From: Onthophagus taurus
Lineage: Eukaryota; Arthropoda; Insecta; Coleoptera; Scarabaeidae
DNA: 64,000 nucleotides
Direction: 5' to 3'
NCBI RefSeq assembly: GCF_036711975.1
Contig: NC_091971.1
Coordinates: 7,571,501-7,635,500, forward strand
Part shown: positions 395 through 50,036 of the stretch, piece after piece
Numbering within the stretch: the stretch's first letter is position 1
How the letters are laid out: every line of letters starts with the position of its first letter
Made by a program: the position numbers and the translations under genes
Notes under the pieces: model-generated
What the model was told of the DNA's origin: nothing
Seen by the model: the letters and a program-made list of their open reading frames with translations, nothing else
The model's database searches: none

Positions 395-830
395 AATTCA
401 ATATTGTCTCTCTCAAAATAACTTCCTTCTGAAGCCACTGCTGAAGATGGTTCTTACCATTTTCATAGCAGTGCTGAAACTCCAGTACTGGAATAGCCTT
501 CAGCTGATCGGTTACAGCCGTTTGAATGTTTTCGAGTGTCCCAAAATGAGTTCTCTTGAAGTGATTTTTCAATCTCTGGAAGAGGTAAAAGTCACAAGAA
601 CTCAAATCAGGCAAATAAGGAGGTTGAGGAGCCACAGGAATGTTGTTACTGGCCAAAAACTCGTTTATTGAAATTGCTTCGTGATGCAACACCCAGCTGT
701 TCTTGATGTTTGGTGCCACACGAATGATCCTTTTTCGAAGTTTTTCAATAATCTCTCGGTAAGTGTTGATTAACTGTTTGACCTTGAGGCACAAACTGTT
801 TGTGGACGATTCCCTGAATATCAAAAAAAT
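395..830 (-). pseudogene. Mariner transposase C-terminal fragment
   Basis: Reading the minus strand gives the C-terminal half of a mariner (Tc1/mariner superfamily, DD34D) transposase: KNSWVLHHEAISINEFLAS, then QPPYLPDLSSCDFYLF, then HFGTLENIQTAVTDQLKAI. The usual stretch carrying the second catalytic aspartate (LHHDNAPxHTAxS) is collapsed to LHHEAIS, so that Asp is lost. At the upstream edge the homology continues in another frame, a frameshift. The 5' half and terminal repeats are absent. The same family recurs at 49178-49792. Dead relic; family call is confident. Confidence 0.85.
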
Positions 831-1000
831 ATTTTCTGTAAAAATTTCGAATAAACTGTAATTAAACAATTAAACAATCAATTTTTTTAAAAATTATATA
901 TAATTACTTTAATTACCATTAAAGGAATTGCGTCTTTGTTTACTACTTAAAAATAATGTTAAAGCCAAATTGTTTAAAATAAAATAGCAATTTACAGCAT

Positions 1001-1034
1001 TATATATATATATACATATATCCTTTTGTCAGTT
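1001..1034 (+). promoter_or_regulatory. Core promoter of luciferase-like gene (TATA + initiator)
   Basis: A TATATATATATA run at 1001-1012 is followed by TCAGTT at 1029-1034, a good match to the arthropod initiator. This puts the predicted start (A, 1031) about 30 bp downstream of the TATA run and 72 bp before the ATG at 1103. The TA run could also be a plain microsatellite. Spacing and initiator support a promoter; transcription is inferred. Confidence 0.5.
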
Positions 1035-1102
1035 AAAAACAATAGTCGTTGATTTATTGTTAAGTTAAAAGCGGTTTGTTGCGTTCGAATTTTTATTCAA
1101 AC

Positions 1103-2963
1103 ATGGATCGTATATTAAATGGGCCGGATTTTATAACACCGATTCCATTGGTTTCAATTGGAATAAGATTATTTGAAAAATTAAAAGAAAAAGAAGACGA
1201 TGTTTTATACGTAAATTAAATTAGAGGTAAAAATTTTTGTTATTGATTTATACTCGAATTTTAGGTTGATGTTTCAAAAGATACGAAACTTACAAACAAA
1301 GAATTTTTAATTTTATGCTGTAAATTAGCGGAAAGTCTTCGAAATTGTGGGTTTAAAGAAAACGACGTTTTAGCTATTTCCGCGGAAAATAGTATTTATT
1401 ATAATGTTCCCACAGTTGCTGGTTTATTTCTTGGGATGATTACAGGATTTATTAACCAAAATTACACTAAAAGTAATAAATAATTAAATGTTTTTTTAAT
1501 ACTTTATAATATAAAAAATTAAATCATTTTAGATGAATTTTTACACCTTTTGAATATATACCAACCAAAAATCATTTTTATGTCTTCAAAATTACTCCAA
1601 TTCTTTGAATCATCCGATTCAATAAAAATCATAATTTTAGATGAAGAAGTAATTCCAGGTTATGATAACCTAAATATGTTTATTAAAAAATATTGCGAAC
1701 CTAATTTTCTCATCAAAAATTTTAAACCTGTTGATGTAAATACTATTGAGCAAATTGCGTTTATTGCATCATCTTCTGGTACCACCGGTTTATCAAAAGC
1801 TGTTATGATAACTCATGATAACACAGCAATAAGAGTGAATCATATAAGTATGAAGGTTATTTCTAGTACTAGATTTAGTGTTACTTCTAGTTTTTGTTCA
1901 AGACTAAATCAATTAGAGTGATTTTTCTAATTTAAATCATTTAAATACATTTATTTTAGGTGACCCAAGATTTTCTTTAGCAAAAGAAGAAGTTGTTTTA
2001 TTAGTAGTACCAAATTTTCACGCTTTTGGTATATTAGTTAGTATTTGTGGAATTATCAATGGCAATAAACTGGTTATAATGCAAAGATTTGACGAAGAAA
2101 CTTACCTAAAATCCATCGAAAAATATAAAATAACAAATTTACCCATCGTTCCAACGATAATTTACAGGTTAGTTAAAAGTTGTATTCTTAAAGATTATAA
2201 TGTCTCAACGGTCGAGGAAATTCTTTGTGGGAGTACACCACTAAGTGAAAGCGTCGAAAAAGAATTCATCAAATGGTTTCCGAATTTACAAAGTTTTCGT
2301 CAAATTTATGGTTTAACTGAATCAACGTTTGGGATTACTGTAATGCCAACGGGAGAGACAAAATTTGGATCATCGGGGAAAATCGTTCCTGGAATGTCGC
2401 TTTGTATTTGCGATGAATTTGGTAATCGCTTAGGTCCTAATCAACGAGGAGAAATTAATTTAAAAGGTAGAATGGTAACTAAAGGTTATTATCGTAACCC
2501 AAAAGCAACAAAAACCACTTTTATCGACGGTTGGTTACACACCGGAGATGTTGGTTATTACGATGAAGAAGGTTTCGTTTTTATCGTCGATAGACTCAAA
2601 GATTTGATTAAATACAAAGGGTTTCAAGTTCCACCAGCTGAAGTAGAAGGAATTTTAATATCTCATCCAAATGTTAAAGCAGCTTGTGTTGTTGGTAAAC
2701 CAGATGAATTTGCTGGGGAGTTACCAACTGGTTTCGTGGTTAAACAACCAAATTCAAATGTAACTGAAGAGGAATTGATTCAATTCGTAGCTGGTTTGTA
2801 TTAATTTCATTTTAATTCGATTTTTAATCAGTGAAATTATTTATTTTAAGAACGAATTTCAAAAACGAAACATTTACATGGAGGAATTTATTTTTGGGAT
2901 GAGTTACCACTTACAGCTAGTGGCAAAATTCAAAGACACATCCTGAGGGATTCCTTCAAATAA
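1103..2963 (+). CDS. Luciferase-like acyl-CoA synthetase (4-coumarate:CoA ligase-like), 5 exons
   Basis: Exons 1103-1210, 1265-1472, 1533-1847, 1960-2793 and 2851-2963 join in frame to 525 aa, close to beetle luciferases and 4CL-like enzymes (about 540-550 aa). It is an ANL-superfamily enzyme: it activates a carboxylic acid with ATP to an adenylate, then transfers it to CoA. Visible motifs are the phosphate loop SSSGTTGLSKAV (about residue 184, with S in place of the usual P), YGLTES (about 326), GWLHTGD (about 400), DRLKDLIKYKGFQVPPAEVE, and the C-terminal catalytic lysine in TASGKIQR (about 512). Where firefly luciferase has HARDP, with a luciferin-pocket Arg, this protein has HISDP, and HHGFG is replaced by FHAFG. 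A fatty/aromatic acyl-CoA synthetase is therefore likelier than a light-emitting luciferase. The C-terminus is SFK, with no clear SKL-type peroxisome signal. Intron 3 carries a CTAG-repeat fragment. Confidence 0.93.
1857..1905. repeat. CTAG palindromic repeat, fragment in intron 3
   Basis: TTTCTAGTACTAG, then TTAGTGTTACTTCTAG, match the outer arm of the repeat family best seen at 55556-56215. It lies wholly inside intron 3 (1848-1959) of the luciferase-like gene, so it does not affect the protein. Confidence 0.5.
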
Positions 2964-3105
2964 TTATATAGTATTGATTATAAAATGTAATGTGGCATGA
3001 TGAAAATAGAAGTTTTGAAAAATATATCAAATTCTAAACGTTTTAACCCTCTAGGTTTATGGAATCAGTTTAAATTTTGAAAGTTTGGTGAACATATTCA
3101 GAAAA

Positions 3106-3111
3106 AATAAA
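3106..3111 (+). terminator. Poly(A) signal AATAAA
   Basis: AATAAA lies 143 bp after the stop codon of the luciferase-like gene and is the first canonical hexamer downstream. It is the likely 3'-end signal for that transcript. Confidence 0.4.
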
Positions 3112-6100
3112 GAAGTTCGGGATAAATTCCAGGGTTAAGTTTTCAAGTGCGAATAAATCTTCTCTCTGCCCCGGTTATGATATGGGCAAGTTTAAAATCT
3201 AGATTGTAGAAGTATGAAGTTGGTGTAATTTACATTAAGTTGGAAGTTCCCGAAGGCCCATAGGTTACTGCTTTTCTGTTCGCTCTAAAAACTTGTTTCA
3301 AACTTTTATGCATTATTTTAACTCGGAACCATATCGGATTATGTATCGTTAAGAAACACGTTTGGGGATTTTTAATGGCCGTCAAACTTTTCGTAGCCCA
3401 AAAAGCCTTTTTCTTTTTCGTTCGTCGAGGTAAACACAAAGTTAAAGTTTGAGGTAATTAACTTGCGCTATGAATAACAAATCCATCATATCCCGGTTTT
3501 CCTTATTTCGGCTTTTCCGAAGTCCGTTTATACAAACTTTATGCTCCTTAGGATTAAAGGAGCTGATGGAAGCAAGCTTCTGGTGTATTTTAGCGTACTG
3601 AAGCCACATTCGTATCAGCCCGGATCAACGTTTGCTCTCTGATAAGTTTCCCGGTTTCCAATTGGCAGCTACTTAAGGGATTATCCAGTGACCACTGCAT
3701 TAATGGAGTTGCGGAACAGTTACTTAAACTTTTATAATCCTATTTCGGTTTTCCCATCGTTGAAACTCCGATAGCAGCTGTATTTGGTGGAGAAACTCTC
3801 TTAAAAATTTTCTAATTGTTTTCGAATTAAACCGATTAAGTTTGGATTACTGTAAGGAGATATTTTATCTTAACTTTTTTAGGTATATTTAATAATTAAG
3901 AACTTTGTAAAGTTGTTTAATTTGATGTAGATGTTCGTTTAAGGGAGGGTATTGGAAATTGATTTCGTTTGATTGTCTGTTGGATCACTGTTATATAGGC
4001 AAATCGGCTATTGCAACACCTCTTCCTCGTACCGCTTCTCTCTTCTCTTCCATCTCCATTTTCTACTAATTTACGGTTGTACCCGACCAGGAGGAGTAAT
4101 CTGTACGCAGCCAAGATAAGCACGGAGCCGGAGACATGTCCTTAGGGACGAGAGACTCCACCTCTTGAAGTCTCACTTGATTGACAGACACTATCTGCGA
4201 CAGTCAGCTTTGTCTCGCCCTCGGCAACGCGGAGCTTTACCAATAGCTTTCCGGACGCGACCGGGTGCACCCAGTCCTTATCAGTTCCTCTTAATTAAGG
4301 CGGACGTTTCAATTTTGCCGTTAAGCTACTGGTATTTCGGGTACTGAGGTCGCGTCCATTTGATTTGAATTTATTGTGTGTTGCTTCGAATCTAATTACT
4401 TTTGTAGACAAAACCTTCCAACCGAAACAATCCAACATGGTGAATAATTGTCTTCTTTTTGTGACCACCATGAATTTACAGTTTGAAAAAAATATATCAA
4501 AAAAAAAAACAATTATATCTATATATAACGTAAATGTAATAAACGTGTATGCAACGATTTAAAAGTTTTAATAGCAACCTTTATAACATATACACTGCAA
4601 CGGTTGAGTGTAAAGTTAACTGTAGAGTCATGTAACGGTCACGCTTTCTGAATCGTTATTTTGAACCCTTTAAAAGCTCAAATAGTAACCTTTGTAACAA
4701 TGCCAGCGTTACAATTTAATTTAATAACAATGCTTGTTTATGCTTTAGTAACAATCACATCGAAATATTTATATTTTTATGAAATGAAAACTTGAACTTT
4801 CCACGCCATGTTTTATCCTGATATATATAGACATCTGCGGAAACTGCTGCTACTGAGACCCGTTAAAAATCACATTAAACATTTATAAGGTCCCGGCGCT
4901 GTCGAATTTCTCCAAAAGGCGTTCCTTCCATGTTTGAGTTTACCGGTAATCCCTTGTGATGACCTCTCACGGTTCAGTTACAGTACAAGAGCACCTGTGT
5001 CCTGCTCGTGCACCAAGACCGGGATAAAGGATTTACATAAAAGACGTTTTCATTTATTTTTACGGCCCTGTTTCCGTATGCGTTAGAAAAGCTTTGATAT
5101 ATCATATTAAAATATTAATGTTTCAATACTCTCACGCGGATTATTACCACAATAATAACTATAATTCTAATAAATATTGCAAGAAAAGGTCTGAAGATGC
5201 ATGGTTAACCCGAAACTTTCTAGGTCTAGTGTTAGCTTTAGTTTCAATTATTTAGCGTGCATTATTTTATGAAGAATTTAGTTCCATTGTCAAAAGCGAA
5301 CTCACAGCGACTGAGTAAGCGCGTGTACTGAAAGGTTAAAATAAATTTTTAACGTCTCTTTTTATCAATAAAATTAATTCTAATTTATAATTGAATAAAA
5401 ACGGATAACCGAAGAGTGTAATTTCCCGGGGATCACTTATGCATGTAAAAGGTCTTTGGAATTCCGCTGTCACGTCCGTAAGGCGATTGGAACCAATTTT
5501 TCAGTGTGCACATGGTCCGTTCACAAAGAACGGCGTTGACATTGCCTGAATAATCCTTTCATTCAATCCACGAGATAGGTAATTTTCTATTTGAATTGCC
5601 GATAGGTTCTCAAAGGACACCCTCTTGAGTGACGACGAAACGAAAACACGTTAACACCGGCCAGAAAGGGTAAGAGGGACAAGATCTCATTTGCTTTATT
5701 GACCTATGTCCTTTTCAAACTTAGTTCATGTTTTACTTTATACGAACCCAACTCTTAATATACAGTAAATGCTAATAAAACATGTGGATGTAACATAATT
5801 CGATTACATATTTATGATCTTGCTACCCGAATAATTGCTTGTAACCGTTATTTATATGCAAACAATGTTGGTCGCGGACAACATATCCGTTCCAACGTTC
5901 CGGTTTATATGGAAAACCCGAGGGTATTATCAATTATAGATACAATATTCGGTATAAATATTCCCGATTCTAATTAATAGGCCAATATTACCAACATTTC
6001 AACTATCCAATTACTGTACGGTGTATGTCTCTTGTCACTTGCTTGCAAACACAAAACATACAAAACACTTGATTTGTTACTAATTATTCCAATCGAATTA

Positions 6101-33147: not shown

Positions 33148-36100
33148 CTATTCCATTGGTAGTGGACACAGTCTGACCGTGGCCCTTTTGACGATCCCAT
33201 TTTGTGTGCGTAGCGTGGCCACTCGTGCGACTCCATCCTTACCGCAGTGCAATTCTATAATTCGGCCAGTAAGCCACTTTAAGACAGGCAAATTATCTTC
33301 CTTTATTAACGCCAATTGGCCCACCTTTAGGTTAGCGTCACCCGTTGACCACTTGTGGCGACTCTGCAGTTCAGACAAATATTCTTTGGACCACCTAGTC
33401 CAAAAATGTTGTTGAATTTGCTGTACACGTTGGAATTGGGATAAGCGGTTTTCACTGATGTGACTCAAGCTCGGATCTGGTGGCGACGTAAGTTTTCTAC
33501 CAATTAGGAAGTGTGCCGGGGTTAAAGGAGTCGTATCGTTGGGATCGGTGGATAATTGGGTTAATGGCCGGGAATTTAGGATGGCCTCAATCTGAACAAG
33601 CAAGGTATAAAAATTTTCGTACGTAAACGAGGCATTGCCGGCAACTCGCCGCAAATGAAATTTGACCGACTTAACACCGGCTTCCCATAATCCGCCAAAG
33701 TGTGGCGAGTTAGGTGGAATAAACGACCAACCAATCGAAGCGTTTTCAATCAGAGTTTTGAGTTCGCTAGAGTTATCAGTCAAAAACTGACTTAGCTCCT
33801 GTAATTCGCGGTTACCACCAACGAAATTAGTTCCGTTATCGGAGAACATTCGATTCGGTTTCCCGCGCCTAGCTGAAAACCGCCGAAGAGCGGCAATAAA
33901 ACACTCTGTAGTAAGTTCGGTTACCAATTCTAGGTGTATAGCGCGTGTGGTAAAGCAAACAAATAGACAAACATACGCCTTGGATAATTTTGCTCCTCGC
34001 CCTTTTTTGTCCTTTAGCAGGAACGGTCCCGCGTAATCTACGCCTGTAGTATAAAAGGGCGGCGCCGGTGTTACTCGCTCACGTGGCAAGTTCCCCATTA
34101 CCGGTTGCTTGGCGCGCGGATTTGCCCTGTAGCAACGTATACAGTTATGGACTATCGACTTGGCTAAATTACGCCCCCCAATTGGCCAAAACCGATCGCG
34201 AATGCAAGCCAACAAATGCTGCGGACCAACATGTAATAGCTGTCTATGTTCCATCTCAAATAGCAATCTTGCGAACGCATGTTTACAAGAAATCACCATG
34301 GGAAATTTCTTATCGAATTCGTAATCCGAATTTCCCAATCTACCGCCAACACGCATAATCTCATTTTTATCTAGAAATACGTTTAATTTCGCTAATTTAC
34401 TATTTTTTTGAATATCTTTATTACTCTTTAACGCCCTTATCTCCTCAGCGAAGGAGTCTCTTTGACTGATCTTAACAATAAATTTAAGCGATTGTTCCAA
34501 TTCGGTTTTATCCAGCGGTCCCGTGTTACGTATTGCTTTCCTATAACAATTATGACCAAATCGAAATACATACGCGATCACACGCTGCAAACGGATTAAC
34601 GATGAAAATCGAGAAAAGGATAAAAGATGATCATCCGTCGTCGTAACCGCTGAGAACAGTTTTCTCATTTCTGGTAGCGATTCGTTACGAAAATTTCTAA
34701 CAGGCCACGCGTTGTCTGTTTCTCTTAGCCATTGGGGCCCAGTCCAATACAATTCTAAACCGGACAATTCTGAGACGTTCACCCCTCTCGAGACCGGATC
34801 AGCGGGATTATCACGCGTGGGTACATACCTCCAATCACCAATTCGCGATTTCTCCAATATTCGCGAAATTCGGTTACCCACGAACATTTGTAATTTGGAT
34901 AAATCGGTCGACAACCACCCCAGGACCACACTGGAGTCGGTCCAATAAACTGTTCGCGTAATATCAATACCCAATGCCGTCTTTACCTTAGCTACCAATT
35001 CGGTAAGTAGCAATGCACCCATTAATTCCAAACGCGGAACCGTAACCCGTTTTAGCGGCGCCACTCTGGATTTGGCACAAGTCAATCTTATCAAAACCTC
35101 TCCGTCGTTTCCGATAGTCCGAAGGTACACGCACGCTCCATAAGCCTTTGTTGACGAATCTGAGAAACCGTGCATTTCGAATGTGGAGGGATTTTTCAGC
35201 GATATATGGCGCGGACAATTGATTAAATGTAAATCCTTCAAACTGTTGCTAAACCGAAGCCAACTTGTGTAAATGTGATTGGGAAGTGCTTCGTCCCACC
35301 CCAACCCGGACTCCCAAATTTCCTGTAAGATTATTTTCGCCGTAATAATCACAGGGCTTAATAAACCGAGCGGGTCGAATATTTGGGCTATTTTCGAAAG
35401 AACCGTGCGCTTAGTAATATGACTGGTTGAATTTTCCTTCATTTTATAACGAAAACAATCTTTAGTGGGGTCCCATAATAAACCTAACGTCCGAGTGTTT
35501 TCATTTTTTCCCAAATCAAGCACTTCTGAAAGCTCTGTAGACTGAGTACCCTGAACATCGCGTAATATCTCTGGATCGTTCGAAATCCACTTGTGTAAGT
35601 TAAATCCTCCGCCGTTCAACACAATTTTTACATTTTTCGCTAAACGAGTAACTTCGGTCAACGAATTTGCTCCCGTCAACAAATCATCTACGTAAAAATG
35701 TGAATTAATAACATCCGCGATGACCGGGTCCGCGCATTCTGAACTTAATTGTTTTAAACACCGAGTCGCTAGATAACTAGCCGAAGACGTTCCATATGTT
35801 ATCGTTAATAACTCGTACGTATCGACGGGTGAATCTTCCGAATCGCGCCATAATATGCGCTGAAATTTCGTCTGCTCAGGATTGATTAGACAGGCACGGT
35901 ACATTTTTTGAATATCCGCTGTAACCACGTACGCGTACTTCCGAAAACGTATTAAGGCGCTAAACAGGTCAGGCTGTAATATGGGTCCCACCACCTGACA
36001 ATCATTAAGTGAATATCCCGTTGATGTGGGACATGATGCATCGAAGACGACCCTTAACTTTGTAGTGGCACTATTTTCATTTAATACTCCGTGGTGTGGT

Positions 36101-38241
36101 ATATAATAACCCTCGCGCGTGTCGACAACCTTTTTCATATGACCTAACTCCAAATACTCTCGCATAAATGCATGGTATCGCTCACCGAATTCGCGATTTC
36201 GTTTGCATTTTCGCTCGATACCCATTAAACGATTTTCAGCGGTTTTATACGATTCGCCTAACCGATCTAAACTTTCCTTTAGCGGTATCGAAACAATGAA
36301 TCGTCCGTCTTCTGCACGTTTAGTAGTTTTGTTAAAATGATTTTCGCAAAATGTTTCATTTTTGGATGAGTGAACTAACCCTTCAATCTCCTCGATTTCC
36401 CAAAATCGCGCCAACTGCTTGTTTATTACGGAATTGTCATCCTTACAAATTAAATTGCACCGCACCGAATGTGCCGCGCTCGCTTGTATCGGCCCCGAAA
36501 CGATCCACCCCAAACGGGTGTTTTGCATGATAGGCCCTTTTGCAAGTTTGATTTGCCCGACGCATAACAAATTCCAAAAATAATCAGCCCCGATCAGCAT
36601 ATCTATCTTATCGGATTTATTGAACAAGGGATCCGCCAAGCGAATGTGTGTAGGTATTCCTAAAGTGTTTGCGTCTATTTCAAAATTGGGTAAATCATTC
36701 GCGATTGTTGCTATAACCAAACAATTAACCTTAAGTGAAAAATCCGTGCAGTGTGAATGTATTCGCAATGAACAGGAACTCGTTATTGTTGACTGTGTTT
36801 GATTTATTGTTGCTACATTAACGTTTGTTGCTGTTCTAGACAATCTTAACCGCTTGAAAGCGTCTACCGAAAGAAAACTACTTTGACTGCCCGGATCCAA
36901 GAGTGCGCGTAATGAATGTTTTTTGTTATGTCTGTCGAATGCGTGAACAGTTACGGTGGAGAGTAAGATGTTTGAATGATTTGCATGCTGTGCGAAATTT
37001 AGACTGTGTGCTTGGGTGGATGTCGTTGGTTGTGGTGGTGAATCTGAGCGATCGTGCGTCAAATGAAGTAAGGTATGATGACGAGAATTGCACCGTTTAC
37101 AAGAGCTCGAACGGCATTGTTTAACAAAATGTCCCGACCGAAGACAATTCATACACACCTTTAATTGTTTGACCCGGTCTATACGGCCCTGAACCGTAAG
37201 TTTAGTGAAATTTGAACATTCCTGTATGTAATGTTCCCCATTGCAGTTTACACAACGCTTAACACCCGAATTAGCAACCAAAAACGTTTTTGATTTCGGT
37301 TTTGGTTTATCGATTATCCGCTTACCCGAACCGTTTTCCAAAGTTTCCAATAAATCAGCACGTTCTTTCAAAAACCCTAACAAATTTTCTAAATTCGCTT
37401 TCTTTAAACCGGACTTTTTCCTTTCCCACTCCCGATTGGAATCAGCGTCCAATTTCGACACGGCTAAATAAATAAGTAGTGTGTCCCAATTATCCGTAGG
37501 TTCATTCAATGCAGCTAACGCGCGCAGATGTTTACGAAAGTCGTCAATAAAACTTCGAATCGGCTGTGGATTATCACCCGAAACCCCTTCAATTTCGAAC
37601 AATGCCTTAACGTGATTATGAATTAATATCCGCGGGTTATCATAACGCTCGCGAATCAACCCCCAAGCGACTTCATAGTTAGAATTTGTCAATTCTAAGC
37701 TTTCGATAACCTGACGAGCATTACCGGTCAGTGCCGACAGTAAGTAATGAAATTTTTGAATGTCGTTGATCATTGGGTTGTTATGAATTAATGATTCGAA
37801 AATGTCTCTAAACCCTAGCCATGCGTCGTAACCACCGTCAAACTTTGGTAAATCTATAACCGGTAGCTTTACATGTTGATCCGGGGAAGGTCCTACAATG
37901 AACGACGAATCGGCGCATATATTTCTATTTGTCAAAATTCGCTTAGCTTTAGCCGTATTTGCGTAAAAACTCGCCTCGAATGTCTCCCTCTCCGCGTTTT
38001 GTGACTCGCCATCAACGCTTAACAAATCTATTTCACCCTGAATTTCCTCGAACTCATCGATAAGATTAATTGCCCGATTGTATCTTTGTTCTAACTCTAA
38101 CGAAAGTTCCTGATTAATACCGCTTTCTCTGATATTTGATTCAAATTTTATTACAAATTTCGCAAAATTCGTGAGTTTGCCCTTGACAATACCTCGTTTT
38201 TTAGTTAAATTTTCTGACTGACTCATGATCGCGATTGACAA
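33148..38241 (-). CDS. BEL/Pao Gag-Pol polyprotein, 1697 aa, intact
   Basis: Domains in order with approximate residues: gag-like DUF1759 (about 125-290, LPKFDGGYDAWLGF); three zinc knuckles (about 320-385, including CVNCNGEHYIQEC and CMNCLRSGHFVKQC); aspartic protease of the DUF1758 type with ALLDPGSQSSFLS (about 445); reverse transcriptase (VVFDASCP and the catalytic YVDDLL at about 850); RNase H (GFSDSSTKAYGACVY, then LELMGALLLTELV and YWTDSSVVLGWL); integrase zinc-binding region (HxxxxHxG, CxxC) and core (TTGVDYAGPF, then FSDNGTNFVGG at about 1467, then FGGLWEAGVKSVK); and the C-terminal DUF5641. No stop or frameshift. Two in-frame ATGs (residues 1 and 6) are possible starts. Every catalytic block I would look for is present. 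Confidence 0.97.
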   Translation of the reverse strand: MSIAIMSQSENLTKKRGIVKGKLTNFAKFVIKFESNIRESGINQELSLELEQRYNRAINLIDEFEEIQGEIDLLSVDGESQNAERETFEASFYANTAKAKRILTNRNICADSSFIVGPSPDQHVKLPVIDLPKFDGGYDAWLGFRDIFESLIHNNPMINDIQKFHYLLSALTGNARQVIESLELTNSNYEVAWGLIRERYDNPRILIHNHVKALFEIEGVSGDNPQPIRSFIDDFRKHLRALAALNEPTDNWDTLLIYLAVSKLDADSNREWERKKSGLKKANLENLLGFLKERADLLETLENGSGKRIIDKPKPKSKTFLVANSGVKRCVNCNGEHYIQECSNFTKLTVQGRIDRVKQLKVCMNCLRSGHFVKQCRSSSCKRCNSRHHTLLHLTHDRSDSPPQPTTSTQAHSLNFAQHANHSNILLSTVTVHAFDRHNKKHSLRALLDPGSQSSFLSVDAFKRLRLSRTATNVNVATINQTQSTITSSCSLRIHSHCTDFSLKVNCLVIATIANDLPNFEIDANTLGIPTHIRLADPLFNKSDKIDMLIGADYFWNLLCVGQIKLAKGPIMQNTRLGWIVSGPIQASAAHSVRCNLICKDDNSVINKQLARFWEIEEIEGLVHSSKNETFCENHFNKTTKRAEDGRFIVSIPLKESLDRLGESYKTAENRLMGIERKCKRNREFGERYHAFMREYLELGHMKKVVDTREGYYIPHHGVLNENSATTKLRVVFDASCPTSTGYSLNDCQVVGPILQPDLFSALIRFRKYAYVVTADIQKMYRACLINPEQTKFQRILWRDSEDSPVDTYELLTITYGTSSASYLATRCLKQLSSECADPVIADVINSHFYVDDLLTGANSLTEVTRLAKNVKIVLNGGGFNLHKWISNDPEILRDVQGTQSTELSEVLDLGKNENTRTLGLLWDPTKDCFRYKMKENSTSHITKRTVLSKIAQIFDPLGLLSPVIITAKIILQEIWESGLGWDEALPNHIYTSWLRFSNSLKDLHLINCPRHISLKNPSTFEMHGFSDSSTKAYGACVYLRTIGNDGEVLIRLTCAKSRVAPLKRVTVPRLELMGALLLTELVAKVKTALGIDITRTVYWTDSSVVLGWLSTDLSKLQMFVGNRISRILEKSRIGDWRYVPTRDNPADPVSRGVNVSELSGLELYWTGPQWLRETDNAWPVRNFRNESLPEMRKLFSAVTTTDDHLLSFSRFSSLIRLQRVIAYVFRFGHNCYRKAIRNTGPLDKTELEQSLKFIVKISQRDSFAEEIRALKSNKDIQKNSKLAKLNVFLDKNEIMRVGGRLGNSDYEFDKKFPMVISCKHAFARLLFEMEHRQLLHVGPQHLLACIRDRFWPIGGRNLAKSIVHNCIRCYRANPRAKQPVMGNLPRERVTPAPPFYTTGVDYAGPFLLKDKKGRGAKLSKAYVCLFVCFTTRAIHLELVTELTTECFIAALRRFSARRGKPNRMFSDNGTNFVGGNRELQELSQFLTDNSSELKTLIENASIGWSFIPPNSPHFGGLWEAGVKSVKFHLRRVAGNASFTYENFYTLLVQIEAILNSRPLTQLSTDPNDTTPLTPAHFLIGRKLTSPPDPSLSHISENRLSQFQRVQQIQQHFWTRWSKEYLSELQSRHKWSTGDANLKVGQLALIKEDNLPVLKWLTGRIIELHCGKDGVARVATLRTQNGIVKRATVRLCPLPME

Positions 38242-38509
38242 GTTTCAGATTGAGAACGATAAAGGAGAAAGCAAAGGGACTTACGGTACTTGTTTCAATG
38301 GCGTTGGTCGCTTCCAGTACGTGATGGACGAATTTCTTCTATCTCGAATTTGTTGAGAGTTGCATGAAGTAGAAATTCGGTCTTCGAACACTCCTGGCGA
38401 ATGTTCTCCAAAAAGCTGCGTAACTGGCGGGCCAACGTTGTCGAATTTAATTTAATTTTACACGCCGCATCAAGGAACCGAAGACACTTAAATCTTCTTA
38501 TATTTTCCC

Positions 38510-41239: not shown

Positions 41240-42109
41240 ATGTATTTCATTCGCATTATTTTCGCAGTTACCTTAATCACTTTTGCAACTTCTGCAACCG
41301 AAAAGGATTCCATCAACATCACTCATTATGGAACGAGTATTTTTGGGGTACCCAAAGAAGAAGTGGGAAAAATGGTAAACGAATGGACGATTGATTCTAA
41401 TATTAACCCAGAAGAAGTAGGGGGATATTTAGAAGGTGATATCTTGGTTCCAACGAAAGGTAGAAATGGACTTGTTGCGTTTAGTGCTAAATGGGAAGGA
41501 TCCGTGGTTCCATATGTAATTGAGGGACCTTATACTATGAAAGATGAAGAAATGATTCAAAATGCAATAAAGCAATATCACGATAATACTTGCATAAGGT
41601 AAATAAACAAATTTATTAAGAATTTAATTAAACGTTTTTTTCTTAGATTTAGAAGAAAACAACCCGATGATACTGATTACATTCGTATAATCAACACAAA
41701 AACTGGATGTTGGTCTAGCGTGGGTCGTATTGGAGGTGCTCAAGAAGTCAATTTACAAAGTCCAGGTTGCTTATCAACCGTTGGAACTCCAATTCACGAA
41801 CTTATGCACGCCTTGGGTTTTCATCATGAACACACGAGATATGAAAGAGACGATTTCGTTAAAATTATGTGGAATAACATAGGGAAAGGTCACGAAAATA
41901 ATTTCCAAAAAGTTCCAAAAGATACAACGAGCGGATTTGGAGTCGATTATGATTATGAATCGGTTATGCATTACTCAGCTTATGCGTTCAGCATTAATCA
42001 AAAACCAACCATTGTTACCAATAAACCTAAGGCTCAAATTGGACAAAGAAAAGGATTCAGCGTTGGAGATATTAGAAAAATAAGATCTATGTATAATTGT
42101 ACCGTTTAA
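41240..42109 (+). CDS. Secreted astacin-family zinc metalloprotease, 2 exons
   Basis: Exons 41240-41598 and 41647-42109 join to 273 aa. An N-terminal hydrophobic signal peptide (FIRIIFAVTLITFATSA) is followed by a propeptide with YLEGDI, matching the FxGD 'aspartate switch' that keeps astacins inactive. The mature domain begins near AKWEGSVVPYVI. The zinc site is HELMHALGFHHEHTRYERD (about 170-188), with the three His ligands and catalytic Glu, and the Met-turn is SVMHY. Four cysteines (TCIRF, GCWSS, GCLST and YNCTV) fit the two conserved disulfides. There is no C-terminal EGF, CUB or ShK domain, so this is a minimal astacin, in insects often a gut digestive enzyme. All catalytic residues are present; the substrate is unknown. 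Confidence 0.96.
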
Positions 42110-46007: not shown

Positions 46008-46237
46008 CGGTTCTAAAAGAATGGGGTTACAGGAAACTCAAAGAAGACAATGAGTACACTTACAAAATACTTCTAATACCTGAAAAAAAAACAGTTAGAT
46101 TAAGATGAATCAATAAAGTCAAAAGAGTGATCTCACGTGAGTACCTCATTTGAAAATTGTATCCCGGTGGCTTAAGAAGGGATTACGAAAGAAAATTAAA
46201 GGCCAAATAAAGTCTTGAGGAAGGTTTTGAGACGGCG
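46008..46237. repeat. Direct repeat copy A (5' part), interrupted by the Transib element
   Basis: Begins CGGTTCTAAAAGAATGGGG and ends TTTTGAGACGGCG. It continues on the far side of the Transib at 49140-49166 (CGGCGTGTGACCTGTAATCC). Together these match copy B at 49793-50036 with scattered changes and a small indel. Confidence 0.85.
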
Positions 46238-49139
46238 CACATACGTAGATTTTAAAGATTTGGGCGGCCAAACATATTTTATGGTGTTTTTTGGTTAAAC
46301 ATACGATATATAATGTAAAAAAAAAACGTTATTAAAAAACAAATCATTATTTTCATAGTTACACATTTTTTTTGGCAAGAAATAGCAATTTTTAGGGCAA
46401 GTACAAAAAATACATGAAAAAATACTTTTTACCTATTATAACGTAAAAATATCATGCACTAAATATAAAATAACATAATTATAACTAAATAACATCGTCT
46501 TTATCTTCGGACCATTCTTCCATCAGAGAGCTGATGGAAGAATGGTTTGGTTCGGCAGACATCAATAGTGCTATTGTTTCAGGGAGGAATGCTATGCGTG
46601 AAGGTTTCTGTATTTCTCTCATGCAGCTAATTAGGGGGTCTGAACTTAAGAAAAGTCTATTAAATACATCTAAATTACATTCCTCTCTCGAAAACTTTCT
46701 AGCGAAGTTAAGCCGATACGATCGGAAGTGTTTGTTTCGGGCTTCTGCTGCCTCTTCCGATAGCTGGCCAATAGGAAGTAGGGAATTTTGAATTATTTGT
46801 CCACCATGCATCAATATTGTATGCATGGTCGGAGTCATTGGGTGCCACCCATACAGTTCTATATACAATTTTGCGGTATCATATGCATATTCATCATATT
46901 TTACTTTGTCAATTTTGTGACCACTTGATATTGTTTCTAATAGAACCTTCAATCTATAGATCAGTTCAAAGCTAATCCCTGTGATCTCAGCAGCTAATTC
47001 TGGGTTTGCAAAGAATCTCCTGCTAGTGTTGCCATCATTGGTATTGCCAAAGTTAGCCTTTAGCATATCAATGAGTAGTCCGGTTTCATTACGAAACTTC
47101 TCTTGGATTTCGGACTTTCGTTGTGCTTCCAATGCCTTTTCTTCTTCAGTTTTCCTTTCTCTATATTTCTTAACCGGTAATTTGTACGCTAGATGGATTA
47201 TGCTTTCAAAAAGCCGAATTCTAGCGTGTAATACAGACAAGCCGAATTCTAAAACAGAAGGATTTACAATGCTCCTTTTGTTCAAATCATTGAAGCTCTT
47301 CGAGGTAGCTCCACAGATGTAGCACTGAGAGGTTGATTTAGTATTTGTGGCAGCGTTACACACCTTTCCGTCGACCATTGTCATTTTTAGTGTGTGCCGG
47401 AATATAAATTCCTTGTCTTGTAACGTGACATTGGTGTTATTCAGCAACTTTGCAGAATCCTTCACGTAATTTATCTCGTCTTTCGTTACGTCTATAGACT
47501 CTTTCAAATACCGGAATCGGATAGGACGACAAAATCGCGGAGAGGATGGCGTTGGATTTTTCCAAATTATTTTACTGCCTTCTTTTCCACAAACAATGCG
47601 CAAAGGTACAAGAAAACTCATAAACATATTTCCATCACATTCGGTCTCATTGTTAAAATTTTGTTTAAACCTGGATTGTTGAGAGCCATCACAACCCCAT
47701 TTACAAATAATTATTAGCGATTTCCTTTCTTCTTTGCTAAGTGTAATTAGCACCTCTTCTAGAAAAATTGATAAGCGTTTCACAGTAAGGTCCATTAGGC
47801 ATTGTAAGTTGCTTTCTGCACAGGTAGCCGTAATCCTTAGGGATTCTTTTGGCGGATAACATTCTTCTTTCGCCTTTAACAAAAGGTCATAGCAAGGGTA
47901 ATGTTTTGGGTTTGTTGCCCTTATTATTTCGTATTGCCGTCTAGTAAGGTCGACTTCCACGAACATCCGAAGTGCTTGCAGAGGTGTTAGCGGAAGTATC
48001 TCGTCATTCACTTTAGAGTAGGCTCTTCTATATTTACTAGCTCATGTTGGAGAGTTTGTGATATCTTTTAGAACTTTCGAGGCATCTCTGTGTCCACTAG
48101 TTTGCAAACCCGATTGTGCAGCTTGCACAATGATTTCGTCGTCTAAAGAGGCGCGAACTTTTTCAGTTTTCCTTCGCTTGCTTCGGTCACTTAACTCTCC
48201 AAAAGGTTTGGGAGGTCGACCTTGTGGGGAAGGCGATTTTCTTGGGATTTCGAACGTTCCCTCTAACCAAGATTGGTTGTTTTTAAGAAAAACACGTTCG
48301 TGTTTGTTGGCTTTCAACCATCTTTGTTTGATTTGTGATTTTACATAAGAAAATCTTTGCTTCAAACACTTTTTACCGTCTTCAGTTTCTCCATAACGAA
48401 GTATAAGATGATTTTCATAAAAATCGAGTTTTTCACTTAAAGTTGGTAAATTTTGCGCTTGTATTTGATTAAACAAATATTTTCGAGTCACCATTTTAGT
48501 ACCCGAGGCACTAAACTGACCTAATATAAAAATAAAGTTGATTTAATATCAAAAAGCACAAATATGACATTTTGCTTTCTTTCGACTCAATAGTTTAAAC
48601 TGCTCTTAAATTGAAAAAGCGCGGCTTTCCGCGGCTAAATTTTTTGTCAATATATAGCTTAATATGTTAAATGTGGAGTACGAAATAAATTAGTACAAGG
48701 ACGAACACTGAAGTACTTTAAAAGACCTTTTGAAAATTAATTAATACAAAAAAATAATATTTAACAGTGTCATTTTTGACAGTTAAAAAATTTATAAAGG
48801 AATATTAAAATTACGTAAATACATAAGTATCGAAAAATATTGTTCCTTACCTGAATTATCGCAATCCATCATTGTCACTTAAAAACAATCTGAATGAAAA
48901 TAATGATGCACTTTAGAAAAGTTGCAAGTTTGCAAACGCCGAGAACAGATAAGTACACGTTAAGTAACTATCGAATTCCGACTACCTGACAATTAACTAT
49001 CGCGCATCGATGAGGGGTGGGAGGGGTGTCATATTATTCCTAGAAGTGTGTACTAACTCAAGTAATTGTTAATTTAATGATATACTGTTTTTTAAAAATT
49101 GACTTTTGGCCGCTTAAATCTGTAAAATCTATGTATGTG
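46238..49139 (-). mobile_element. Transib DNA transposon (RAG1-like transposase) with TIRs and CGGCG target duplication
   Basis: 2,902 bp. The left end reads CACATACGTAGATTTTA, then AAGATTTGGGCGGCCAAA. The inverted right end reads CACATACATAGATTTTA, then CAGATTTAAGCGGCCAAA, with about 4 mismatches over about 35 bp. CGGCG occurs at 46233-46237 and again at 49140-49144; a 5-bp, GC-rich CGNCG-type target duplication is the known signature of Transib elements, and ends starting CAC recall the RAG recombination-signal heptamer. The empty site is visible in direct-repeat copy B, where AGGAG (50010-50014) stands at the same place. The element holds one transposase gene, interrupted by a single stop. 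Confidence 0.93.
46485..48494 (-). pseudogene. Transib/RAG1-like transposase, one in-frame TGA
   Basis: One frame of 670 codons runs from ATG at 48494 to the stop at 46485, broken only by a TGA at 48044-48042. The ten codons between it and the 508-codon downstream frame are open, so no frameshift is involved. RAG1-core landmarks are in order: KWGCDGS, with the first catalytic Asp as in RAG1 CDG; CRPIRF; the zinc pair CYIC; then H-x4-H in MHTILMHGGQII; then SEEAAEARNKHFR, where the Glu four residues before Lys aligns with the RAG1 catalytic Glu in NESGNK. The second catalytic Asp I could not place with confidence. The TGA may be a nonsense mutation, a sequence error or (least likely) read-through. 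Confidence 0.9.
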
Positions 49140-49166
49140 CGGCGTGTGACCTGTAATCCTTTTTAA
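49140..49166. repeat. Direct repeat copy A (3' part)
   Basis: CGGCG, the Transib target duplication, followed by TGTGACCTGTAATCCTTTTT, the end of copy A split by the Transib insertion. Copy B has TGTGACCTGTAATCCTGTTT at 50015-50034. Confidence 0.8.
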
Positions 49167-49177
49167 TCTGTATGAAA

Positions 49178-49792
49178 TTAACCACGAAGCGGAAGGTCTT
49201 CATCTTCAAGAATCGATGAAAACGTCGACAGAATCCGGGATCTTGTGCGTGCAGACTCAATGACAGTCCGAATGATTGGGAAAGAGTTGAAATGACTCAC
49301 ACCACCGTTCATCAGATTTTGACCAATCAATTGGGGATGAGAAAAATCTACGCATTTCCAAAAAACCTTTCGCAAAACCAAAAAGACATCAGGAAGGCAA
49401 GGTGGCTTGATTTTTTGGAATCGATTGAAAATGATCCCCATTTTCTGGAACATGTTATTATTGGAGACGAGCCTTGGGTGATTGAGTACAATCCGGAAAC
49501 CAAGCGCCAGAGCATGGAGTGGCACACTTCAACCTCTCCAAGGCTCAAAAAAGCAAGAATTAGCAAGTCGAAGATCAAATGCATGCTGATTTGTTTTTTC
49601 GATATCCTGGGAATCGTCCACAAACAGTTTGTGCCTCAAGGCCAAACAGTCAATCAATACTTTTACCGAGAGGTTCTTGAAAAACTTCGAAAAAAAACTG
49701 GGTGTTGCATCACGATGCGCCTTGTCACATAGCAATTTCAATAAACGAGTTTTTGGCCAGTAAAAGCATTCCTGTGACTCAGCCTCCTTATT
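49178..49792 (+). pseudogene. Mariner transposase fragment (N-terminal HTH to second catalytic region)
   Basis: Starts about GRSSSSRIDENVDRIRDL, read as SSRIDENVDRIRDLVRADSM across a frame change, then THTTVHQILTNQLGMRKIYA (helix-turn-helix), then VIIGDEPWVIEYNPETKRQS, which normally reads TGDETW, then GQTVNQYFYREVLEKL. It ends HHDAPCHIAISINEFLA, then PVTQPPYS in a shifted frame, where it stops abruptly at direct-repeat copy B. Single-base losses break the frame near 49695-49740, and the last part and both termini are missing. Same mariner subfamily as the fragment at 395-830. Dead. Confidence 0.87.
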
Positions 49793-50036
49793 CGGTTCTA
49801 AAAGAATGGGGTTACAGGAAACTCAAAGAAGACGATGAGTACACTTACAAAATAAAAAAATTATTAGATTAAAATGAATCAATAAAGTCAAAAGATTTTA
49901 AACGTAATCCCACGTGAGTTCCTCATTTGAAAATTGTATCCGGGTGGCTTGGGAAGGGATTACGGAAGAAAATTAAAGGCCAAACAAAGTCCTGAGGAGG
50001 GTTTTGAGAAGGAGTGTGACCTGTAATCCTGTTTAA
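49793..50036. repeat. Direct repeat copy B (uninterrupted)
   Basis: Matches copy A (46008-46237 plus 49140-49166) from CGGTTCTAAAAGAATGGGG to TGTGACCTGTAATCC. It keeps the pre-insertion sequence GAGAAGGAGTGTGACC where copy A holds the Transib. The repeats flank the mariner fragment. Confidence 0.85.

Follow-up and report, generated by a model that had tools for sequence, protein, structure and literature searches.

A complete, disabled Transib element of a young family in the genome of Onthophagus taurus

We analyzed a stretch of 64,000 nucleotides from the scarab beetle Onthophagus taurus (contig NC_091971.1, positions 7,571,501 to 7,635,500 of the forward strand), hereafter the window, which contains a transposable element of the Transib superfamily (Table 1). 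The outer bases of the element are CAC at 46238 and GTG at 49139. It is flanked on each side by the same 5 bp and is occupied by one gene, on the minus strand, with a predicted length of approximately 685 codons. We believe that it belongs to a young family of cut-and-paste Transib transposons and is itself complete yet disabled, with a probability of approximately 0.95. A preliminary description of the window had called it a complete Transib with a CGGCG target duplication and had placed the element exactly where it is listed here. Superfamily, completeness and boundaries were borne out by homology to HzTransib of Helicoverpa zea, by the ends, by the target-site duplications and by the other copies in the genome.

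Table 1. Coordinates, in the window, of the Transib element, its parts and its insertion site.
Feature	Position	Strand	Basis
Left target-site duplication CGGCG	46233..46237	.	sequence; copy comparison
Whole Transib element, 2,902 bp	46238..49139	- (transposase strand)	ends, target-site duplication, genome copies
Left terminal inverted repeat, 35 bp: CACATAC, 19 bp, GCGGCCAAA	46238..46272	+	inverted-repeat search; end pattern
Transposase exon 2 including stop codon; one TGA break	46485..48520	-	reading frame, copy comparison
Perfect 16-bp inverted repeat, 4-nt loop, in C-terminal codons	46511..46546	.	in 4 of 7 copies covering the region
Catalytic Glu	46743..46745	-	aligns with HzTransib E436
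HxxxxH zinc pair	46806..46823	-
CxxC zinc pair	47313..47324	-
Catalytic Asp 2	47370..47372	-	aligns with HzTransib D225
Catalytic Asp 1	47688..47690	-	aligns with HzTransib D126
Part like the RAG1 nonamer-binding domain, with a GRP motif and helices (residues 91-165, counted in the frame that starts MVTRK)	48000..48224	-
In-frame TGA	48042..48044	-	also in copy L006, another contig
Predicted intron, 330 nt, GT...AG	48521..48850	-	gene prediction
Predicted exon 1, 22 nt (MMDCDNSG across the junction)	48851..48872	-	gene prediction; likeness to Euphydryas editha N-terminus MDCDNTG
Right terminal inverted repeat, 35 bp: CACATAC, 19 bp, GCGGCCAAA	49105..49139	-	inverted-repeat search; end pattern
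Right target-site duplication CGGCG	49140..49144	.	sequence; copy comparison
Unfilled, diverged duplicate of the insertion site	49793..50036	+	84% identical to joined flanks

The element ends form the longest inverted repeat of the region (arms of 41 nt, 6 flanking bases included in each, 88% complementary), in agreement with the terminal inverted repeats starting with CAC that had been described. A 24-base end pattern, with up to 3 mismatches allowed, had two matches in the window, both of them the element ends, while none was found in 100 shuffles.

The long reading frame with a single internal TGA was also described correctly, but that gene model was incomplete. It overlooked an intron, which would be removed by splicing, and the short first exon predicted upstream of it. 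The joined reading of the two exons is MMDCDNSGQFSASGTKMVTRK. The predicted first exon is supported by the similar N-terminus (MDCDNTGLLTTSGTRVVTRQ) of P0001, an unnamed protein of Transib type in the butterfly Euphydryas editha and, among 120 listed, the nearest relative named by species. The start of exon 1 and the GT and AG splice signals were present in all eight genome copies described below. The TGA, at residue 151, falls within the part that resembles the nonamer-binding domain (NBD). Between the ends of the window copy no further frame reached 150 aa, and we thus found no second gene or RAG2-like partner. The element goes with the canonical one-gene Transibs such as HzTransib, which have no RAG2 gene.

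We compared the 518-residue piece that follows the stop with solved structures. It matched HzTransib (PDB 6pqn/6pqx; E = 7.4e-113) and amphioxus RAG1L (E = 6.9e-5), and nothing beyond these was better than E = 1. The N-terminal piece alone gave only two matches to COA6 (E = 0.2 and E = 0.29), which we dismissed as chance level. The predicted fold has the same transposase core as HzTransib (38-41% identity in structural alignments). The catalytic residues of HzTransib are given as D126, D225 and E436 (PMC6941560), and the D-D-E of our protein stands at the same positions (PDB chain and HzTransib protein numbering differ by 17, as counted by hand). The D-D-E, CxxC and HxxxxH codons, the RAG1 landmarks of the preliminary description, were located where expected. 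These residues were kept in 119 or 120 of the 120 listed relatives, the rest being gaps. HzTransib measures 3,518 bp and its deduced protein has 489 aa (PMC1852546), compared with 2,902 bp and approximately 685 predicted codons here. The first 165 residues of the frame in the intact copy L002 (see below), the NBD-like part included, lie outside the match to the HzTransib chains, which align from chain residue 21-22.

At least 928 relatives reached E ≤ 0.001 among 7,993 candidates scored, therefore this type of protein is common. P0001 was 78% identical over 97% of the query and had similar first-exon residues. It comes from another insect order and is closer than the protein of the scarab Popillia japonica (68%). 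We built a tree from the L002 protein and 24 hand-picked proteins of the 120 listed, 12 of them with a species name. Our protein grouped with a butterfly protein and two unnamed proteins (support 99/99), and beetle and butterfly proteins were interleaved. We considered horizontal transfer and do not claim it, as the comparison is one of proteins only. A scan of a viral contig collection with P0001 gave no match.

A DNA search of the whole genome identified at least eight copies longer than 2 kb with 97-100% identity, the window copy (L001) included; 40 of 67 candidates were scored and the copy counts are lower bounds. The copies differed from each other by 0.29-1.94%, and the closest pairs by 0.29-0.30%. 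Both ends were present in six copies (L001-L004, L006 and L007), while L005 was without the left 171 bp and L008 without both ends. The main frame was open in L002, L005 and L007. L001 and L006 carried the same TGA, L003 another stop and L004 a 2-bp frameshift, and L008 was cut short. Additionally, L006 had a 48-bp deletion in the main frame, and inserts interrupted L006 and L007, in the latter case outside the frame. L002 was full-length and showed no break in anything tested, which comprised both exons, the splice signals, the two ends and the duplication. A search for copies without the TGA, as had been proposed, was thus successful.

The two inserts were of different kinds. The one in L006 (L030, approximately 485-3124) was 2.64 kb long, had inverted ends of approximately 440 bp and a likely 6-bp duplication, and looked Polinton-like by eye. 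The one in L007 (approximately 4205-5267) was 1.06 kb long; its inverted ends measured 219 bp, and a palindrome of 380 bp lay inside it. The 16-bp inverted repeat in the C-terminal codons was present in L001, L002, L005 and L006; a non-palindromic stretch, 12 bp shorter, took its place in L003, L004 and L007, and the region was missing in L008. This palindrome looks as if a template switch had copied the strand back.

An exact 5-bp duplication was observed in all six two-ended copies (CGGCG, CAGCG, CGGCG, CGCTG, CGTTG and CGCTG), as is likewise reported for HzTransib (PMC1852546). All six read CNNNG. Transib elements are reported to prefer CGNCG targets (PMC4735498). The preliminary description had expected boundaries at the CAC ends together with CGNCG duplications; the former were found in six of six copies, the latter, in strict form, in two (CGGCG), next to three of CAGCG/CGCTG and one CGTTG. 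Flanks of different copies had no mutual match at E = 1e-3. The window flanks, joined with one CGGCG, scored 327 against the unfilled duplicate, whereas the left and right boundaries in their present form scored 289 and 42, respectively. This supports a clean insertion into a site of which a diverged copy is retained nearby. The right-hand neighbour of the element is a mariner-type relic (Transposase_1, E = 7.1e-12, 49220-49732).

The same end architecture, CACA, 22 free bases and GCGGYCAAA (heptamer, 19 bp, nonamer-like block), was common to this family and to a sister and a third Transib family of the genome, except for one third-family end (L047, right), which was 1 base shorter. This bipartite pattern had 55 matches in the whole genome (25 distinct sequences), compared with 6 for the reversed pattern. 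Fifty-two of the matches had further bases in common and 3 resembled chance, as judged by eye. Transib ends with heptamer and nonamer-like blocks and symmetric spacers of 20-22 bp have already been published (PMC8355894). We also looked for miniature inverted-repeat transposable elements and saw none among the close matches: among 21 genome matches to the end pattern of the family (up to 3 mismatches), the 13 with 0-1 mismatch were ends of seven of the eight copies, none of them solitary, and the other 8, all with 3 mismatches, bore the end sequence of the sister family.

The sister family (L031-L033 and further places) has approximately 67% DNA identity to the family studied here. Its frame was broken in all three numbered copies, whose target duplications were CGGCG, CGATA and CGACG. 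Elements of the third family (L046, L047 and L048) are approximately 3.3 kb long, with target duplications CGTCG (L047) and CAACG (L048), and their left end starts with CACAGTG, identical to the V(D)J consensus heptamer. Another type of end, the fourth, CACATACGGGTATTTGAACGATCTAAGCGGCCAAA, was observed on either side of a 2.3-kb stretch (G000:C3:15630556-15632882).

We propose that the transposase of an intact copy would bind the bipartite ends. By analogy with HzTransib, its DDE active site would cut at the CAC terminus, with a nick followed by a hairpin on the flank, and the excised element would be joined into GC-rich 5-bp targets, giving the 5-bp duplication. The window copy, unable to make the whole enzyme, retains both ends; it could be moved in trans and probably was moved so. 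L001 and L006 lie on different contigs, their target duplications differ, and they have in common the stop and sites 1017 and 2321, seen in no other copy. This comparison of copies provides moderate support for the view that a stop-bearing copy was moved by an enzyme from elsewhere. We also compared the family with a piece of the sister family (386 codons, 63% amino-acid identity). The proportion of synonymous differences (pS) was 0.84, which is saturated, and that of nonsynonymous differences (pN) was 0.22, therefore the protein was constrained over long times.

Several observations weigh against parts of this reading, and we considered them together with the alternatives. A Pfam search of two reading-frame pieces of the window returned no family and missed the RAG1 model, which 16 of 38 aligned members reach at E = 0.001. 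The Transib assignment is therefore settled by homology to HzTransib. The RAG1-like landmarks and fold would also suit a RAG1L-RAG2L (RAGL) transposon; we rejected this, as no RAG2-like gene is adjacent in the window copy and the transposase scores 381 bits to Transib against 25 bits to RAG1L/RAG1. Membership of RAGL or of another DDE superfamily is extremely improbable. As for the unfilled duplicate, its alignment extends just 22 bases past the junction on the right, and it has AGGAG where the target is CGGCG, so a clean insertion is supported rather than proven. Movement in trans could be mimicked by recurrent mutation, with two independent origins of the stop. The grouping of L001 and L006 is contradicted by sites 883 and 1006, and the tree of the eight copies, from which the palindrome block was excluded, separates this pair at 86.5/86, and at a moderate 78.2/75 without the stop column. 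However, sites 1017 and 2321 are also exclusive to the pair, and we consider two origins of the stop somewhat unlikely.

The family may also be extinct, after a burst approximately 0.5-3 million years ago, with all copies now drifting. This age is rough, being based on the divergence of 0.3-1.9% and a rate of about 3e-9 per site per year for insects. Of the eight copies, seven are defective, by a stop or frameshift (L001, L003, L004 and L006), an insert (L007), truncation (L008) or loss of an end (L005). Nonsynonymous to synonymous changes, stops apart, were 23:5 when shared (3:1 of these in one palindrome block) and 37:11 when private, compared with approximately 3.7:1 for sites. The pN/pS ratio was 0.94 between the open frames of L002 and L007, and 0.18-4.06 over 21 pairs with small counts (L004 was omitted for its frameshift). 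Recent divergence among the copies thus bears no sign of protein-level selection, a pattern which is also expected if copies drift once inserted and depend on an enzyme from elsewhere for their movement. On the other hand, full-length L002 remains, unbroken where tested, and the closest pairs are nearly identical. We regard the chances of extinction as even. The preliminary description had called the family probably young or still active: its youth is supported by the differences between copies, and present activity is suggested, rather than shown, by that youth and by one unbroken copy beside seven defective ones.

The remainder of the window contains other features. An open frame of 1,698 aa on the minus strand (33148-38244) resembles, by eye, a BEL/Pao-type retroelement polyprotein. 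Host exons on the plus strand encode an AMP-binding luciferase-like enzyme (1917-2804) and an astacin metallopeptidase (41603-42109). The luciferase-like exon was 81% identical to an O. taurus protein; the next of 120 listed matches, also from O. taurus, was 54% identical, and short partial matches among them reached 63%. Taken by itself, this one exon would point to a close relative of O. taurus, rather than to that species, as the most likely host.

RAG1/RAG2 and ProtoRAG (RAGL) likewise have the RAG1-core fold, the catalytic triad, the CAC start, 5-bp duplications and an NBD-like part. They differ from the element described here, which has no RAG2 gene, 14-20% identity to RAG1 in structural alignments, and 19-bp spacing at both ends without 12/23 asymmetry. 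The preliminary description had invoked the ancestry of the V(D)J recombinase. The kinship through Transib holds, while the element itself is a cousin and not an ancestor, as RAG1L-RAG2L transposons are reported to be nearer relatives of the recombinase (PMC4411706, PMC7204232). Drosophila Transib1, a DNA transposon of 3,030 bp, is reported to have invaded D. melanogaster in 2013-2016 (PMC12230796), therefore recent spread of Transib in insects is already known. Since insect Transib activity, the NBD-like domain and heptamer-nonamer-like ends are in print (PMC12230796, PMC9435367, PMC8355894) and Transib is mentioned in beetle genome papers, the surprise is small. Within the open-access literature on Transib, Coleoptera and Onthophagus transposable elements we found no title on this family, which is weak evidence of absence. 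To our knowledge, biochemical proof of activity exists for few Transib elements, HzTransib being one of them.

In summary, the family is ordinary in kind and in good condition, a canonical young beetle Transib of which the genome holds one unbroken copy at another place. With its youth, its unbroken copy and an NBD-like N-terminus absent from the HzTransib chains, the family would be a useful second test system for RAG-type signal recognition, and the bipartite ends common to several families in one genome would add to this value. It is quite unlikely, in our opinion, that the family is still mobile and that its single protein reads both blocks of each end, with the core on the CAC heptamer and the NBD-like N-terminus on GCGGYCAAA, at a fixed spacing of 19 bp. 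If true, this would amount to recombination-signal recognition in a living beetle in symmetric form and without RAG2, and the stop-bearing copies could then yield a fragment of approximately 166 residues, which would include most of the NBD-like part, lack the catalytic core, occupy the ends and repress transposition.
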